Of a stretch of DNA of 64,000 nucleotides, positions 3,071 to 38,095 are shown in pieces. A program made the position numbers and the translations under genes. How positions within the stretch are numbered: the first letter of the stretch is position 1; each line of letters opens with the position of its first letter. The notes under the pieces are model-generated. The model was given only the letters and a program-made list of their open reading frames with translations, made no database searches and was not told the DNA's origin. Source of the DNA: a virus; IMG/VR virus record IMGVR_UViG_3300032284_002843, positions 1-64,000 of that record; one strand, given 5' to 3'.

Positions 3071-4462
3071 TTAGCTCAATGCAGGCTTGTTGCTGGCTTC
3101 TCGCACCTGATCAAACGTCCATTCCTGCATGATCTGTCCATTGCGGAAAACAACTCGAAGAGCATCTGCCCAGTCATACCCTGTATTTGCATGGACAGTT
3201 TCCCACTTACCATTTTCACGGATAAGAACCAACCGTCCCTTCTTGCTGCGCTTGCCTGTATCAGTAACAGGATCCTTGTAAACATCGCGCCATTCACCGT
3301 TAATGTACATAGCACTGCACTTCATAGCAAACTTTTGAGTATCACGGTTGACCATCTGCAACAGTCCACCGCCCATACCAAATGCAATGTTATCCGCACT
3401 CCATCCACGATCAAGAAGGTTAGTAAGGATAATCGGAAGGCTGTCAATGGTAATACCGTCTCCCTGGATTACACGGATGCAGCTAGGGAGAACCTTATAG
3501 CCCTTCTTGTTAACAGTGTAACCAAACTTCTCACCGAGACGTTCAATTACATCAACCGGAACTGTGTGAGGGTCTCCGCTGTCAGGACGAACAACTACAG
3601 TAGCACCGCTGTCAATAACAGCCTGTCGCAGCTCTTCACCCCAAATGTTGCTAGCTGCGTTCATAATGTCATAGCTATCGCTAACTACAGCAACCAGTGC
3701 ACCCGGACGGGCAAACTGCTTGAGCATATTTGCATATGCCTTGCTTTCATTTTCACGGCCCCAGCTAGTAATAGTGCTGTGCTCTGCAGCAGGAATACTA
3801 AAACCAGCCATGCCTGCACCGTAATAACGTCGAGCAGCCATTGCACCTGCAACAGTATCAGTACCCATGAAATTTACCAGGTGAGCAGCACCACCAATAG
3901 CAGCACTTTCATTGCTGCTAACACCGCGTGCACCAAAGTCATGCAACTTAAAGGGCAGCTGACCATCAACATCTTCCGAGCTCTCCTCAAGAGCAGAGCG
4001 AATAATCTGCTTGCAATGCCAGCTAAGGCTAGATACCGTAGTTGGATACCAAATAGCACGAAGCAAGCTGGTTTCAATAAAGGTAGTAAGCCAGAAGCAC
4101 TTGGGATCAGTATTCACAATAGTACACAGAACATTGTGAGTGGGGATTACAGTTCCCTCGGCTACGGCCTTAACTTCAACAGGAAGATAACCGTTATACT
4201 TGTTGAGGATGTATTCCCAACCATCCTTGTTGAACGGCTCGCCGTGTGCAGCCCAAAATTCAGCTGCCTCGTCAATCATAGCCTGCGTAATGGGCTTGCT
4301 CAGGTATTCCTTGAGAAACATCTGCAACCCAAAGAATACGGTGCGATCAAACTTGCCCCCGCGACTCTCAATATAGCTGTAAACATACTCGGTACCAGGC
4401 GGATACTGAAAGGCATGGCTAGCCTTGTACGAGTCCGTATTTAAAAGAAAGTTATCAAACAT
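3071..4462 (-). CDS. nadV: Nicotinamide phosphoribosyltransferase (NAMPT)
   Basis: 463 aa, full length for NAMPT. The enzyme makes NMN from nicotinamide and phosphoribosyl pyrophosphate. Family landmarks are in order: DNFLLNTDSYKASH at the N-terminus, HDFGARGVSS (174-183), GTDTVAGAM (200-208, Asp202 matching the nicotinamide-specificity Asp), catalytic His228 in AAEHSTITSWG, VVRPDSGDP (290-298) and GMGGGLLQMVNRD (362-374). The start has an AGGAG site and its own sigma70-like promoter. With the NMN adenylyltransferase at 5015-6049 it forms a two-step nicotinamide-to-NAD route. This pair is known from other large phages, where it can restore NAD depleted by host defences. Confidence 0.97.
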   Translation of the reverse strand: MFDNFLLNTDSYKASHAFQYPPGTEYVYSYIESRGGKFDRTVFFGLQMFLKEYLSKPITQAMIDEAAEFWAAHGEPFNKDGWEYILNKYNGYLPVEVKAVAEGTVIPTHNVLCTIVNTDPKCFWLTTFIETSLLRAIWYPTTVSSLSWHCKQIIRSALEESSEDVDGQLPFKLHDFGARGVSSNESAAIGGAAHLVNFMGTDTVAGAMAARRYYGAGMAGFSIPAAEHSTITSWGRENESKAYANMLKQFARPGALVAVVSDSYDIMNAASNIWGEELRQAVIDSGATVVVRPDSGDPHTVPVDVIERLGEKFGYTVNKKGYKVLPSCIRVIQGDGITIDSLPIILTNLLDRGWSADNIAFGMGGGLLQMVNRDTQKFAMKCSAMYINGEWRDVYKDPVTDTGKRSKKGRLVLIRENGKWETVHANTGYDWADALRVVFRNGQIMQEWTFDQVREASNKPALS

Positions 4463-4492
4463 TGCAAATCTCCTTTGCGGTTAAAATAGAAA

Positions 4493-4554
4493 GGGTCTAT
4501 CCCAATCTAAAATCTTTCTGTGAACTATACTAACACTTTACAAAATAATGTCAA
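4493..4554 (-). promoter_or_regulatory. Early promoter of NAMPT plus GGGATAGACCC box
   Basis: On the minus strand TTGACA (4554-4549) is followed by TAGTAT at 16 bp or TATAGT at 19 bp, then GGGATAGACCC (4503-4493), 30 bases before the ATG. The same 11-base box sits at the same distance before the NMN adenylyltransferase gene, so it is probably a shared regulatory or leader element. Confidence 0.7.
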
Positions 4555-5003
4555 GCATAATCCTCAAGTCTAGCTCGGATTTCAAGATAAAACTGATGAT
4601 ATTTGGTCATACGCTTAATGTCCTTTTCAGTAATACCTTTCAATCGCCTAATATCACTGTTATGACGCAGGTCACACAGCTTTACTTCCATAGCATCACG
4701 ATTGGCAAATACACGCTCCTTGTATTCGTCCAAGGTTTCACCAGGAATCTTTGTGAGTGATTTGATTCCGTCAATCACTCGCTCGCTGATTTCAGCATTT
4801 TTGAGATCTTGATAGGTAACGTCAGTATCTTCAATCACATCGTGGCCCAGAGCAATGCACTGAAGCTCCTCATCTGTGGTTTTAAGATAATGCATAACCT
4901 TCAATGGATGTAGAATATAAGGATTGCCGGCCTTATCATACTGTCCGGCATGAGCATTGGTTACTAAAACCAACATCTTTCCTAGCATTTCACCACGTTT
5001 CAT
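4551..5003 (-). CDS. RelA/SpoT-type HD hydrolase (small alarmone hydrolase-like)
   Basis: 150 aa, a free-standing HD domain without synthetase or TGS parts. The pattern matches SpoT / MESH1: NAHAGQ (His18), YILHPLKV (His32), LGHDVIED (His54-Asp55) and KLCDLRHN (Asp111). Such enzymes remove the 3' pyrophosphate of (p)ppGpp, and MESH1 can also act on NADPH. The start chosen is the ATG at 5003, which has GGAGG six bases before it. An earlier ATG at 5015 lacks this. The gene follows the NMNAT-Nudix gene directly and lies between the two NAD-salvage genes. It could relieve the stringent response or act on a nicotinamide nucleotide. The substrate is inference. Confidence 0.85.
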   Translation of the reverse strand: MKRGEMLGKMLVLVTNAHAGQYDKAGNPYILHPLKVMHYLKTTDEELQCIALGHDVIEDTDVTYQDLKNAEISERVIDGIKSLTKIPGETLDEYKERVFANRDAMEVKLCDLRHNSDIRRLKGITEKDIKRMTKYHQFYLEIRARLEDYA

Positions 5004-5014
5004 GTTATCCTCCA

Positions 5015-6049
5015 TCAAATCCTAGCAATCATGTTGTGAATAATAGCATAGTGATCCTCGAACATCATGTCTCTTTTAACATGATTAATCGGCACCCAAC
5101 GAGCCTTGTCAGCATCGTCCATACCCTTGATCTTAGGCAGTGTGGGTTCATCCTTGAGCTTGATCAAAAATGCATGAGTAATGGTACGTCCACGGCTGCT
5201 GCGGTTTGGATCGTCAAACACATCCTGAGCAACAATGCTTCCACGAAGCACCGGATCAGGAACCTTGATGCCAGTTTCCTCTCGCAACTCTCGAATTACA
5301 GCATCCTTAATGCGCTCCCGAGGATTCAAAAATCCACCCGGCAGTGCCCAAAGACCTTTTCCAGGAGCAGCCCGACGTCGCACCAGTGCAATATGTCCAC
5401 TCTGTACAACAATAGCATCAACAGTTACAAACGTTGGTGCATATGGTGCTGCAGCCCAGCTAGCCTTGTACTTTTCAACAAACTGATATTCCTCGAGGAT
5501 CTTAGCAAAATACGTAGTATTGACAAAATGTCTGAGAAAATGCATCGTGCTTTCTGGCAGTTGATCAGGAAAATACCAATTAGCATTATCAGAAAAGAAG
5601 CGGGTCCTAATATCAGTGCTGTTCAGCCCTTCATAGTTAGGAGCCTCAATGCTTGAATAAGCAGGAAACATATTGAGATAATAGCTAGAATTATCCTTGC
5701 TATGACCAATCAGTGCAACCTTGGCCTTACTTTCGTCGACCTGCAGTGCATCCAGTGTGCCACTGACAAGGTCTTGTACATTTTTCACCCACTGCATGTC
5801 ATTATATGCACTGTCTTCAAGAGGAGCGAAAATAAGACGGCTCGCTACGCCTTCAAAATGATTTTGAATCATATTCACACGTTCATCAAAGTAGAACGGA
5901 TTACGATGGCTACGTGCTTCGCCTGCACTACCAATCAAAACCAAAACATTTTTTGCAGATTCAAGAGCAAGTTTAATAACTTGCATGTGCCCAAGATGGG
6001 CCGGTTGGAAGCGGCCAATGAATACGGCCAAATCATACTTGTGTGCCAT
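5015..6049 (-). CDS. nadM: Bifunctional NMN adenylyltransferase / Nudix hydrolase
   Basis: 344 aa in two parts. Residues 1-190 are an NMN adenylyltransferase of the NadM type with GRFQPAHLGH (12-21) for ATP binding and LNSTDIR (142-148) near the end of the nucleotidyl domain. Residues 205-344 are a Nudix domain with a complete box from GFLNPRE to REETGI (239-261). Known bacterial homologues join NMN and ATP to NAD and hydrolyse ADP-ribose or related compounds with the second domain. Together with NAMPT this completes NAD salvage and could also recycle ADP-ribose. It heads the 6049-4551 unit, with a consensus early promoter upstream. Confidence 0.96.
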   Translation of the reverse strand: MAHKYDLAVFIGRFQPAHLGHMQVIKLALESAKNVLVLIGSAGEARSHRNPFYFDERVNMIQNHFEGVASRLIFAPLEDSAYNDMQWVKNVQDLVSGTLDALQVDESKAKVALIGHSKDNSSYYLNMFPAYSSIEAPNYEGLNSTDIRTRFFSDNANWYFPDQLPESTMHFLRHFVNTTYFAKILEEYQFVEKYKASWAAAPYAPTFVTVDAIVVQSGHIALVRRRAAPGKGLWALPGGFLNPRERIKDAVIRELREETGIKVPDPVLRGSIVAQDVFDDPNRSSRGRTITHAFLIKLKDEPTLPKIKGMDDADKARWVPINHVKRDMMFEDHYAIIHNMIARI

Positions 6050-35522: not shown

Positions 35523-35780
35523 TTAATTATCATCATTTTTTACCAATTTTAGCATGGCCTGATAACATTCATATTGTGTAGCTACGGCTGGATTTTCTGC
35601 TCTAATCTTGGCTTCTGCTTCCATTTGTGTTTTATACTTTCTTACCCAATCAATAGCAGAGACGATATCGTTGTTAACAGTAATGTTCACCCGCGTTTTG
35701 TCGTAATCATTACTGGTGTGAATATAAAACCAATCATGCGGATACACATCTACTATTGTTCTGTTCACAAATTCAACCAT
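35523..35780 (-). CDS. Hypothetical protein, 85 aa
   Basis: Start at the ATG at 35780, with GGAGG four bases upstream, overlapping the previous stop by eight bases. VEFVNRTIVDVYPHDWFYIH, then a helical end (YKTQMEAEAKIRAENPAVAT). No family recognised. It belongs to the 36661-35523 series of overlapping small genes that leads into the lysis genes. Confidence 0.55.
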   Translation of the reverse strand: MVEFVNRTIVDVYPHDWFYIHTSNDYDKTRVNITVNNDIVSAIDWVRKYKTQMEAEAKIRAENPAVATQYECYQAMLKLVKNDDN

Positions 35781-36021
35781 TGGACCTCCATATTGATAAT
35801 TTATCTGCTTGTTCTTTTGTCTTAATACTATAAAAACTTTCGGCATAAGCAAGATTCAACAATACCATATGATCAGTATTATATATTTCGCAAATATGTC
35901 CAATAGATCCTGGTCCGTATGTCGAACGAAGAAACGGACTGTGTCTAATCTTATGCTGTTTGATAAAAATTCTTATGTCATTCAAATTTGAATGTATAAA
36001 AATTACATGTTTAGTCTTCAT
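35773..36021 (-). CDS. Hypothetical protein, paralogue of the central domain of 36011-36661
   Basis: 82 aa from the ATG at 36021 within the end of the upstream gene. IHSNLNDIRIFIKQHKIRHS, then GHICEIYNTDHMVLLNLAYA, align with IHGNLASMKQYMDQQSMRYS and FYICDIFTKEDAALLSFSYH in the neighbouring 216-aa protein. A duplicated domain of about 60 residues, function unknown. Confidence 0.55.
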   Translation of the reverse strand: MKTKHVIFIHSNLNDIRIFIKQHKIRHSPFLRSTYGPGSIGHICEIYNTDHMVLLNLAYAESFYSIKTKEQADKLSIWRSNG

Positions 36022-36661
36022 CTGTCCAGTCACTTTCATCTGCCTCCTCGATATGTTCGTCACCGTCACCTATATAATCATTCTTACCAGTAAACCAGCC
36101 AATCAGGGGTTTCAAAGCTGATTTAGCCTTAGCCAACATCTGCTGTTCCTTTTCATCATACCATTTATAATAATCTTCATTGCTTTGCAATATCCTGTAT
36201 TCATTATGATACGAAAAGCTTAACAGTGCTGCATCTTCTTTAGTAAAAATATCACATATATAGAACTCTGTGCCACACCCACCTGTTATCTTTCGAATCT
36301 TGCTATAACGCATACTTTGCTGGTCCATGTACTGTTTCATAGATGCTAAGTTTCCATGAATCAACAACCTAGCATAAGGCCCTTCAGATTTTTTTAGCCG
36401 TTCCCTATCCTCCTTGGTCAACGGCCGCAGCTCTGCTTCATTGTCGTCATTGATTGTAAGCAAACAATGTTTAAATTTGATGCTACCTTTGGTGTGGGGA
36501 TTATCACTTGTTTCTTTGGTACTCCACGGAATATTGGCATCAAGATGATTAATGTAAAAAGATTTTCCATTTGCCTTAATCGTCCACATAGGAATACTCG
36601 GATCCTCTAGGTGTTTCTTGTTAAAGTGGAAAACTGCTGTATCACATGCTAATTCAACCAT
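36011..36661 (-). CDS. Hypothetical protein, 216 aa
   Basis: Starts MVELACDTAVFHFNKKHLED. The middle (RLLIHGNLASMKQYMDQQSM onward) is shared with the 82-aa neighbour. The C-terminus is acidic (GDGDEHIEEADESDWTDED). No enzyme motif recognised. GGAG precedes the ATG. A terminator upstream (36694-36726) separates it from the suppressor tRNA unit. Confidence 0.55.
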   Translation of the reverse strand: MVELACDTAVFHFNKKHLEDPSIPMWTIKANGKSFYINHLDANIPWSTKETSDNPHTKGSIKFKHCLLTINDDNEAELRPLTKEDRERLKKSEGPYARLLIHGNLASMKQYMDQQSMRYSKIRKITGGCGTEFYICDIFTKEDAALLSFSYHNEYRILQSNEDYYKWYDEKEQQMLAKAKSALKPLIGWFTGKNDYIGDGDEHIEEADESDWTDED

Positions 36662-36693: not shown

Positions 36694-36726
36694 AAAAAAC
36701 CTGCAAGGCGAATAGCCGTGCAGGTT
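36694..36726 (-). terminator. Terminator after the suppressor tRNA
   Basis: Stem AACCTGCA / TGCAGGTT with an inner GGC / GCC pair, followed on the minus strand by TTTTTTG. It ends the CCA-adding enzyme plus tRNA unit. Confidence 0.85.
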
Positions 36727-36791
36727 CATCAAAATCAAACTAAAATAAATTAAAACCTAGTGCTCTTTTAACATCATAATCCTATTTAGTT

Positions 36792-36865
36792 TGGTGCTTC
36801 GTGTGAGATTTGAACTCACCTTCGCAGTTTTAGAGACTGCTGGTCCGCCACTGACCCAACGAAGC
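36792..36865 (-). tRNA. tRNA with anticodon CUA (amber suppressor)
   Basis: Perfect cloverleaf on the minus strand: acceptor GCTTCGT / ACGAAGC (7 of 7), D stem GGTC / GACC with loop AGTGGCG, anticodon stem GCAGT / ACTGC with seven-base loop CTCTAAA, T arm GTGAG-TTCAAAT-CTCAC, discriminator A, and encoded CCA. With U33 fixed, positions 34-36 are CTA, which reads UAG. The charging amino acid cannot be read from the sequence. The gene starts 14 bases after the CCA-adding enzyme and is followed by a terminator, so the two form one unit. Many genes in the window end normally at TAG. Confidence 0.93.
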
Positions 36866-36879
36866 GTATTGTTAATATA

Positions 36880-38061
36880 TTAGGTATAAACCGTGGTGTC
36901 AACCTTATCTAGCAACTGTTCTTTGGTAGCAGTATAGCCACTTTTAGCCCAGATGTGTTTCAACGCTTGGATAACTTTGCCATAATGCGGGCCAGGTTTC
37001 ATGCCCAGCTTCATTAAATCAAAGCCATTAACTGGAAACACAGGGATAGGCCATTCTGCCAAGACAGCTTGATCAAAGGCATCAATATCAAAGATTTTGG
37101 CCATTTTGCATACCCAATCTCGTCTAACGCCATCTACAGCCAACAAATAATAGGGATTAAAATCGGTTTTATACTGATGAGCCTCTACAAACTCAGCCCA
37201 ATCCTGTTCCTCTTTACTGGTTTTCCATTTCTTCAGCAGCTCTCTGGTGATTACGGGTCCATACAACGTATGCAGAATCGCAATAGGATCAGGCTCGCGG
37301 CTGTGCAGTCTTTCAGCGTTATAGATCCAGTCACATTCTGAAGGCAAATCAATAAATTCTGCAACATCATACTGATGGATTTGCAAAATCATTTTTGGAC
37401 CATATGGTCCTGCTAGAATCTGCCGGATCTCACTCCATACACGCTCACGGCTGATAGATTTTAAGCCAGCGGCATTAGCCATAATATGCTTGGCGTCAGC
37501 AGGATACTCCGTTCGATCACGTTCTGGATCAATGCCATACCTAGCACGGAACCTGAACCAACGAAGGATTCGTAGATAATCCTCTTTGATACGTTGATCA
37601 GCATTGCCAACAAAACGCACGCGATAATTCAGCAAATCATTATATCCGTCAAAGGGGTCGATCAGTACACCGTCGAAGGTAAAACTCATAGCGTTGATCG
37701 TAAAGTCACGCCTTGCGAGATCTTCCAACCAATCTCTCGTATATGCCACAGTGGCTCGCCTGCCGTCCGTTGCAACATCCAAGCGCAGGCTGGTGATTTC
37801 ATATACTCCACTGTCCAGTACCACCGTTATAGTACCGTGATCAATACCGGTGGGAATATGTCGAATGTCCGCATTTTGATAGATAGAGATCTGTTCAACA
37901 GGATCAGCGTCGGTGCAGAGATCAATATCCTTAGGCTGTTTACCAGCCAAGTGATCTCGCACACAACCGCCCACAAATCTCAAATCAAAACCTTGAGTTT
38001 GAAAGAGATTACGAAGATTCTGCAAATCTTGATTAAGTAACGGATCAATATTAAAAATCAT
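36880..38061 (-). CDS. cca: CCA-adding tRNA nucleotidyltransferase
   Basis: 393 aa, class II nucleotidyltransferase. RFVGGCVRDHLAGKQPKDID holds the GG and DxD catalytic motifs. RRATVAYTRDWLEDLARRDF and TINAMSF, then YLRILRWFRFRARYG, are the RRD-F-T and ERxxxE-region landmarks. It adds or repairs the 3' CCA of tRNAs. Its promoter is a TTGACA / TAAACT pair with the -10 six bases from the ATG. The suppressor tRNA follows directly, already with CCA encoded, so the enzyme's main use may be tRNA repair, for example after nuclease attack. Poly(A) polymerases are the main alternative. Confidence 0.93.
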   Translation of the reverse strand: MIFNIDPLLNQDLQNLRNLFQTQGFDLRFVGGCVRDHLAGKQPKDIDLCTDADPVEQISIYQNADIRHIPTGIDHGTITVVLDSGVYEITSLRLDVATDGRRATVAYTRDWLEDLARRDFTINAMSFTFDGVLIDPFDGYNDLLNYRVRFVGNADQRIKEDYLRILRWFRFRARYGIDPERDRTEYPADAKHIMANAAGLKSISRERVWSEIRQILAGPYGPKMILQIHQYDVAEFIDLPSECDWIYNAERLHSREPDPIAILHTLYGPVITRELLKKWKTSKEEQDWAEFVEAHQYKTDFNPYYLLAVDGVRRDWVCKMAKIFDIDAFDQAVLAEWPIPVFPVNGFDLMKLGMKPGPHYGKVIQALKHIWAKSGYTATKEQLLDKVDTTVYT

Positions 38062-38067
38062 GCCAGT

Positions 38068-38095
38068 AGTTTAGCATGATTTAACATGATGTCAA
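38068..38095 (-). promoter_or_regulatory. Early promoter of cca-tRNA unit, leaderless geometry
   Basis: TTGACA (38095-38090), 16-bp spacer with a direct repeat CATGAT, and TAAACT (38073-38068). Six bases then separate it from the ATG at 38061. Confidence 0.7.

Follow-up and report, generated by a model that had tools for sequence, protein, structure and literature searches.

Background

Phages that use genetic code 15, in which TAG is read as glutamine (crAss-like, Lak and other phages), carry a suppressor tRNA with the anticodon CTA in hosts that keep the standard code (PMC10879173, PMC13037316), and orphan CTA tRNAs have been reported from two phages without recoding, XacN1 (PMC5852040) and Summit (PMC9022506), in whose descriptions no target was found. 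Here we analyse such a tRNA in a 64,000-nucleotide stretch (the window) of the IMG/VR virus record IMGVR_UViG_3300032284_002843, a record of 136,279 bases that was analysed in full, together with relatives of the gene just downstream of it, for which we use the name SAP. On the basis of these comparisons, the tRNA is very probably one half of a two-piece stop-codon lock, formed by the suppressor tRNA and a target gene, SAP or PTH2 (a peptidyl-tRNA hydrolase), that carries a stop close to its start. In the window phage itself, SAP appears to have escaped the lock, with the tRNA staying behind.

Several described systems resemble this arrangement in part. The code-15 phages share the phage-encoded CTA suppressor tRNA, but phages with a stop lock keep TAG as an ordinary stop and would read through it in one or two genes with a single early stop. 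A dedicated tRNA also reads a stop codon in a small number of genes in the pyrrolysine and selenocysteine systems; here, however, there is no sign of a special amino acid or enzyme, and the stop lies close to where translation starts, a position that suggests gating rather than chemistry. In the autoregulation of RF2 (prfB), an early in-frame stop makes synthesis hinge on release-factor competition, although prfB responds by frameshifting, whereas the phages considered here would use a tRNA encoded nearby. The XacN1 and Summit studies looked for targets after annotated stops and not before genes; in our analysis XacN1 has a locked gene that contains PTH2. A literature search for such stop locks, with most subscription journals outside its reach, found no description.

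An in-frame stop at the start of SAP genes

Relatives of SAP in IMG/VR numbered 231, 343 and 330 in three scans. Among 103 distinct copies one is cut by a contig end, and 98 of the 102 untruncated copies share the same layout: a Shine-Dalgarno (SD) site, ATG, 0-8 codons, an in-frame TAG and then the conserved protein. Most of these locked copies (72 of 98) have one codon alone between ATG and TAG, as in AAGGAAAATAAA-ATG-TCA-TAG-ATT-GAA-TAC. The four unlocked copies (loci L253, L343, L345 and L443) have ATG at exactly the place of the lock stop. On a tree of SAP copies the unlocked state corresponds to four changes, at least three of them on well-supported branches; the L343 and L253 copies are nested in locked groups, and the window copy joins L345 weakly, on long branches. 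When 61 locked genes were compared, the SD-to-ATG spacing was 5-10, and the codons after TAG had accumulated 8714 changes at third positions versus 2087 and 2133 at the others, a bias which indicates that these codons are translated.

The base directly after the lock TAG is a purine in all 98 copies, as opposed to 36 of 87 ordinary TAG stops, a contrast whose p-value overstates its significance because the copies are kin. The codon that comes after the TAG is ATT, ATC, ATA, GTA or ACT, and AAC in the cultured Rhizobium phage RHph_I1_18, where SD-ATG-AGT-GAG-TTC-ATG-TAG-AAC-GAA leads into a one-domain SAP that is unannotated in the record and is followed at once by an annotated tRNA-Pyl(cta). 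In a sample of 54 loci, 53 targets have the arrangement SD-ATG-x-TAG followed by an open reading frame (ORF), and the rest of these loci yielded three such cases with TAG, one with TAA and none with TGA; TAG serves as the ordinary stop of 62 of the 776 ORFs in the 54 loci. At about 4450-5139 of locus L235, ATG-GCA-TAG-IEY leads into an ORF that resembles a homing endonuclease and looks as though it had landed right behind the lock; the SAP gene that comes next starts anew with ATG-AAA-TAG.

The lock is accompanied by the tRNA. A CTA tRNA was found within the flanks of 86 of the 98 locked copies, and for eight more (94 of 98 in total) the tRNA, or its truncated end, lies at another place on the contig or narrowly beyond the listing that was scanned; the other four come from contigs 4-14 kb long. 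Every one of the 124 scored CTA hits is on the SAP strand, at a median of 304 bases upstream, and the next most constant neighbour family of SAP occurs in 19 of 54 loci. ARAGORN, applied to the scanned loci, detected 62 CTA tRNAs among 138 tRNAs, all within 80 SAP loci; DNA-polymerase loci, meant as a control, contained zero tRNAs of any kind and therefore say nothing either way. The stems of the CTA tRNAs covary. Judged by this linkage, the conserved partner of the CTA tRNA is SAP. A short unlocked SAP domain (locus L378, 5966-6223, Paenibacillus sp. FSL H7-0326) lies within a bacterial tRNA gene array, which suggests that the role of the domain is tied to tRNAs.

PTH2, a second locked family

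The locked gene of XacN1 came out of a scan of whole phages; chance SD-ATG-stop cases were many in DLP5 and XacN1, and comparison with relatives left the XacN1 PTH2 gene alone. The Pfam score for PTH2 (PF01981, cut-off 23 bits) is 25.3 bits for the XacN1 protein and 29.8 bits for a protein of locus L028. The lock reads ATG-AAG-TAG in XacN1 and the related phages RAS14 and CM1, ATG-GCT-CAC-TAG in XbC2, ATG-GCA-CAA-TAG in GAP32, ATG-ACT-TAG in ME3 and ATG-AAG-TAT-TAG in Phosso. The CTA tRNA was confirmed in XbC2, GAP32, ME3, Phosso and RAS14 (CM1 was outside the tRNA scan), and that of XacN1 was both seen in the scan and reported in its paper. Among 74 distinct PTH2 copies in IMG/VR, a strict rule recognises a TAG lock in at least 30, and a further 6 appear locked on inspection by eye; at TAG-locked loci the gain in coding density from TAG as sense is no greater than that from TGA. 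The phage of locus L028 (IMGVR_UViG_3300010373_001364), which uses the standard code and has two CTA tRNAs, contains at 3613-4032 a candidate locked gene, ATG-AAA-GCA-TGG-TTC-ACA-TAG, whose protein has an HDHPW motif.

The two families meet at several loci. PTH2 lies two genes ahead of the SAP domain in Phosso and Atu_ph07, and in L343 and L443 a TAG-locked PTH2 stands directly upstream of an unlocked SAP, with the CTA tRNA retained; this adjacency suggests that the two proteins probably act together. The PTH2 gene of Atu_ph07 is locked by TGA instead (ATG-ATT-GGC-GAA-CAC-TTT-TGA); the same phage has a TCA tRNA, and the combination of a TGA-locked PTH2 and a TCA tRNA recurs in locus L609. These two independent matches are few, yet it would be difficult to account for them if the tRNA did not read the lock. 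Ochre tRNAs (anticodon TTA) occur close to PTH2 genes in L594, L610 and L589. In the records MN988519, JN882285, KU935715 and OP292654, locked genes were missed or shortened in annotation owing to the in-frame stop.

In the mechanism that we propose, one piece would be a phage suppressor tRNA that reads UAG and the other a target gene in which translation, set up by a strong ribosome-binding site and ATG, meets an in-frame stop within 1-9 codons. As long as the phage tRNA had not been made, processed and charged, the host release factor would end translation at the lock, and the target protein could be produced solely while the tRNA was there to compete with RF1. The targets would be SAP and PTH2, sometimes side by side, and the device is presumed to bear on how peptidyl-tRNA is handled. 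Features of the compared sequences point to this mechanism, namely a conserved stop in a purine context, conservation of the protein right behind that stop, the linked tRNA and the match of codon and anticodon; from them we infer the readthrough, the competition with RF1, a regulatory purpose and lysine as the inserted residue. It is likely, furthermore, that the lock and its key are gene-specific, with PTH2 and its partner gated by a dedicated tRNA and the stop and the anticodon co-evolving.

The tRNA of the window and its neighbours

The features of the window are collected in Table 1. The original prediction had read a CTA anticodon from a tRNA on the minus strand, and ARAGORN finds the same anticodon, its label 'Pyl' deriving solely from it. 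The tRNA matches the Rfam tRNA model at 59 bits, folds into a cloverleaf of -25.4 kcal/mol (z -2.5) and scores 76 bits under a covariance model of SAP-adjoining CTA tRNAs, for which the window tRNA was also used. It has the 7-base anticodon loop with CUA and the T-loop TTCRANT of an elongator tRNA, an encoded CCA end, the pairs G1-C72 and C2-G71, A73 and a short variable loop. In pyrrolysine tRNAs the anticodon stem has 6 bp and a single base joins the acceptor stem to the D stem; the window tRNA has 5 bp in that stem and a linker of two bases and was rejected as a pyrrolysine tRNA on structure, no search for pylS having been made. No match to it was found by blastn in named phages. The aminoacyl-identity prediction advised along with the original prediction had a divided outcome, with no clear isotype by similarity and lysine predicted as the inserted amino acid through U35 and A73 under tRNA identity rules (reviewed in PMC9976931); for the few G73 tRNAs of the family it may be glutamine.

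Table 1. Features of the window around the CTA tRNA
Feature	Position	Strand	Basis or remark
Amber-suppressor tRNA, anticodon CUA	36792..36865	-	ARAGORN, Rfam, fold, covariance model
SAP gene, 216 aa, unlocked homologue of the stop-locked target	36011..36661	-	relatives read ATG-x-TAG at its start
Terminator-like hairpin and U-run, between tRNA and SAP gene	about 36697..36727	-	-18.6 kcal/mol, z -5.0
Promoter-like TTGACA-17-TATATT	36874..36902	-	11/12 consensus matches; inside 3' end of the CCA-adding enzyme gene
CCA-adding tRNA nucleotidyltransferase	36880..38061	-	PDB and PHROG matches; neighbour outside the conserved module

As in the relatives, the tRNA lies upstream of SAP on the same strand, at a distance of 130 bases. 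The window SAP begins with ATG-GTT-GAA behind a good SD site. Its protein has no match in Pfam, PHROG or PDB, and a fold search against PDB gave nothing at E 0.001 and weak hits only; AlphaFold predicts two domains, an N-terminal one rich in beta structure and then an alpha/beta one (mean pLDDT, the predicted local distance difference test, 86). Two small ORFs follow SAP (35523-36069 of the window), the first of which resembles the second SAP domain by eye.

The original prediction placed the tRNA in one unit with the CCA-adding enzyme, sharing its promoter and closed by a terminator. The enzyme itself is clear (top PDB match human TRNT1, E 1e-77), and the tRNA does start 14 bases beyond the stop of its gene, but the pairing is not conserved: no CCA-adding enzyme is present in about 98 relatives of the SAP locus, and no CTA tRNA in eight IMG/VR loci of relatives of the enzyme. 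By this comparison the enzyme is an incidental neighbour of the tRNA. The supposed shared promoter (38068-38095) has 10 of 12 consensus matches, and promoter-like sites in its surroundings do not exceed the number expected by chance (43 versus 44.6 in shuffles). The better site in Table 1 ends 8 bases ahead of the tRNA, so that transcription of the tRNA may start from a promoter separate from that of the enzyme. The strong hairpin and U-run fit a terminator. Two sites on the minus strand that resemble promoters, 38330-38303 and 38095-38068, stop 6-7 bases short of an ATG, as if for leaderless messages.

The window phage uses the standard code. TAG terminates 24 of its 170 ORFs, ligase, polymerase and Nudix among them, in agreement with the original prediction that at least ten genes end at TAG. 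The coding density of the record is 0.898 under the standard code and 0.903 with TAG as sense, which does not place it among code-15 phages, for which a 5% density threshold is used in large genomes (PMC10879173). Its DNA polymerase is nearest, among named phages, to those of the jumbo phages Phosso and Atu_ph07 (46-48% identity); beside the question of its host, a scan of bacterial genomes gave a single distant relative. C-terminal readthrough of the TAG-ended genes of the window was considered and rejected: at least 25 open codons follow TAG in three alone, one of which (32389) reads on into the gene of a sigma factor that has a separate SD-ATG, and another of which is an antisense ORF.

Alternative explanations

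With one codon before TAG in most SAP locks, ATG-x-TAG could be a mini-ORF similar to the bar minigene of lambda, sensing peptidyl-tRNA drop-off, with the protein restarting after the stop and the tRNA unrelated. Such a sensor is attractive given that the other target is a peptidyl-tRNA hydrolase, but we consider it improbable, as the codon after the stop is never a usual start, as many as nine codons precede the stop, unlocked copies put ATG exactly at the stop position, and the identity of the stop fits the anticodon (TGA with TCA) of a tRNA that is near and on the same strand. The conserved protein starts immediately after the stop, as it would if UAG (or UGA) were itself the start codon and the phage tRNA an initiator; initiator tRNAs need a weak 1-72 pair, though, and G1-C72 is paired in 43 of 43 tRNAs, while the SD spacing suits ATG, which shifts with SD when more codons intervene, and this possibility is scarcely credible. 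CTA tRNAs occur in many recoded phages (PMC13037316), and the locked genes might be two of many under a genome-wide reassignment of TAG. This is very unlikely: the record of the window shows no gain in density, gains over whole phages are small and, where both were tested, no larger than those with TGA (within noise), and TAG is an ordinary stop of ORFs neighbouring SAP.

Several observations weigh against the stop lock, or against its operation in the window. There is no in-frame TAG early in the window SAP, no other locked gene or PTH2 was convincingly found in the 136-kb record, and the tRNA of the window phage thus has no known readthrough target. About 28 of the 74 PTH2 copies have an ordinary ATG start, many of them still near a CTA tRNA; the L253 locus, with an unlocked SAP, retains the tRNA with no recognised lock; and no target was recognised in the whole-phage scan of DLP5. 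There is an even chance that the window tRNA is a relic of a locked ancestor or serves another target outside the record. The unlocked SAP, and a record of 136 kb that is otherwise devoid of SD-ATG-x-TAG genes, would fit this, set against an intact tRNA that has its CCA encoded and a promoter-like site right before it, and a record that may cover just part of a larger genome. Either case is compatible with the stop lock. The original prediction had suggested partial readthrough of chosen phage or host messages early in infection; chosen phage messages are probably correct, but the target would be specific and not a matter of broad partial readthrough, the stop in the relatives falling at codons 2-10 of SAP, of PTH2 or of both.

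Implications

The suppressor tRNAs of phages that do not recode have been a puzzle, and most likely they serve a few stop-locked genes. Candidate targets can now be named in the cultured phages RHph_I1_18, GAP32, XbC2, ME3, RAS14, XacN1 and Phosso, with an opal version in Atu_ph07. If the stop lock is real, a tRNA gene would work as a switch reserved for particular genes, and the locked proteins would appear only after the tRNA pool of the phage works. It would also reveal genes that gene callers miss or cut, and would hint at how full reassignment of a stop codon might begin.
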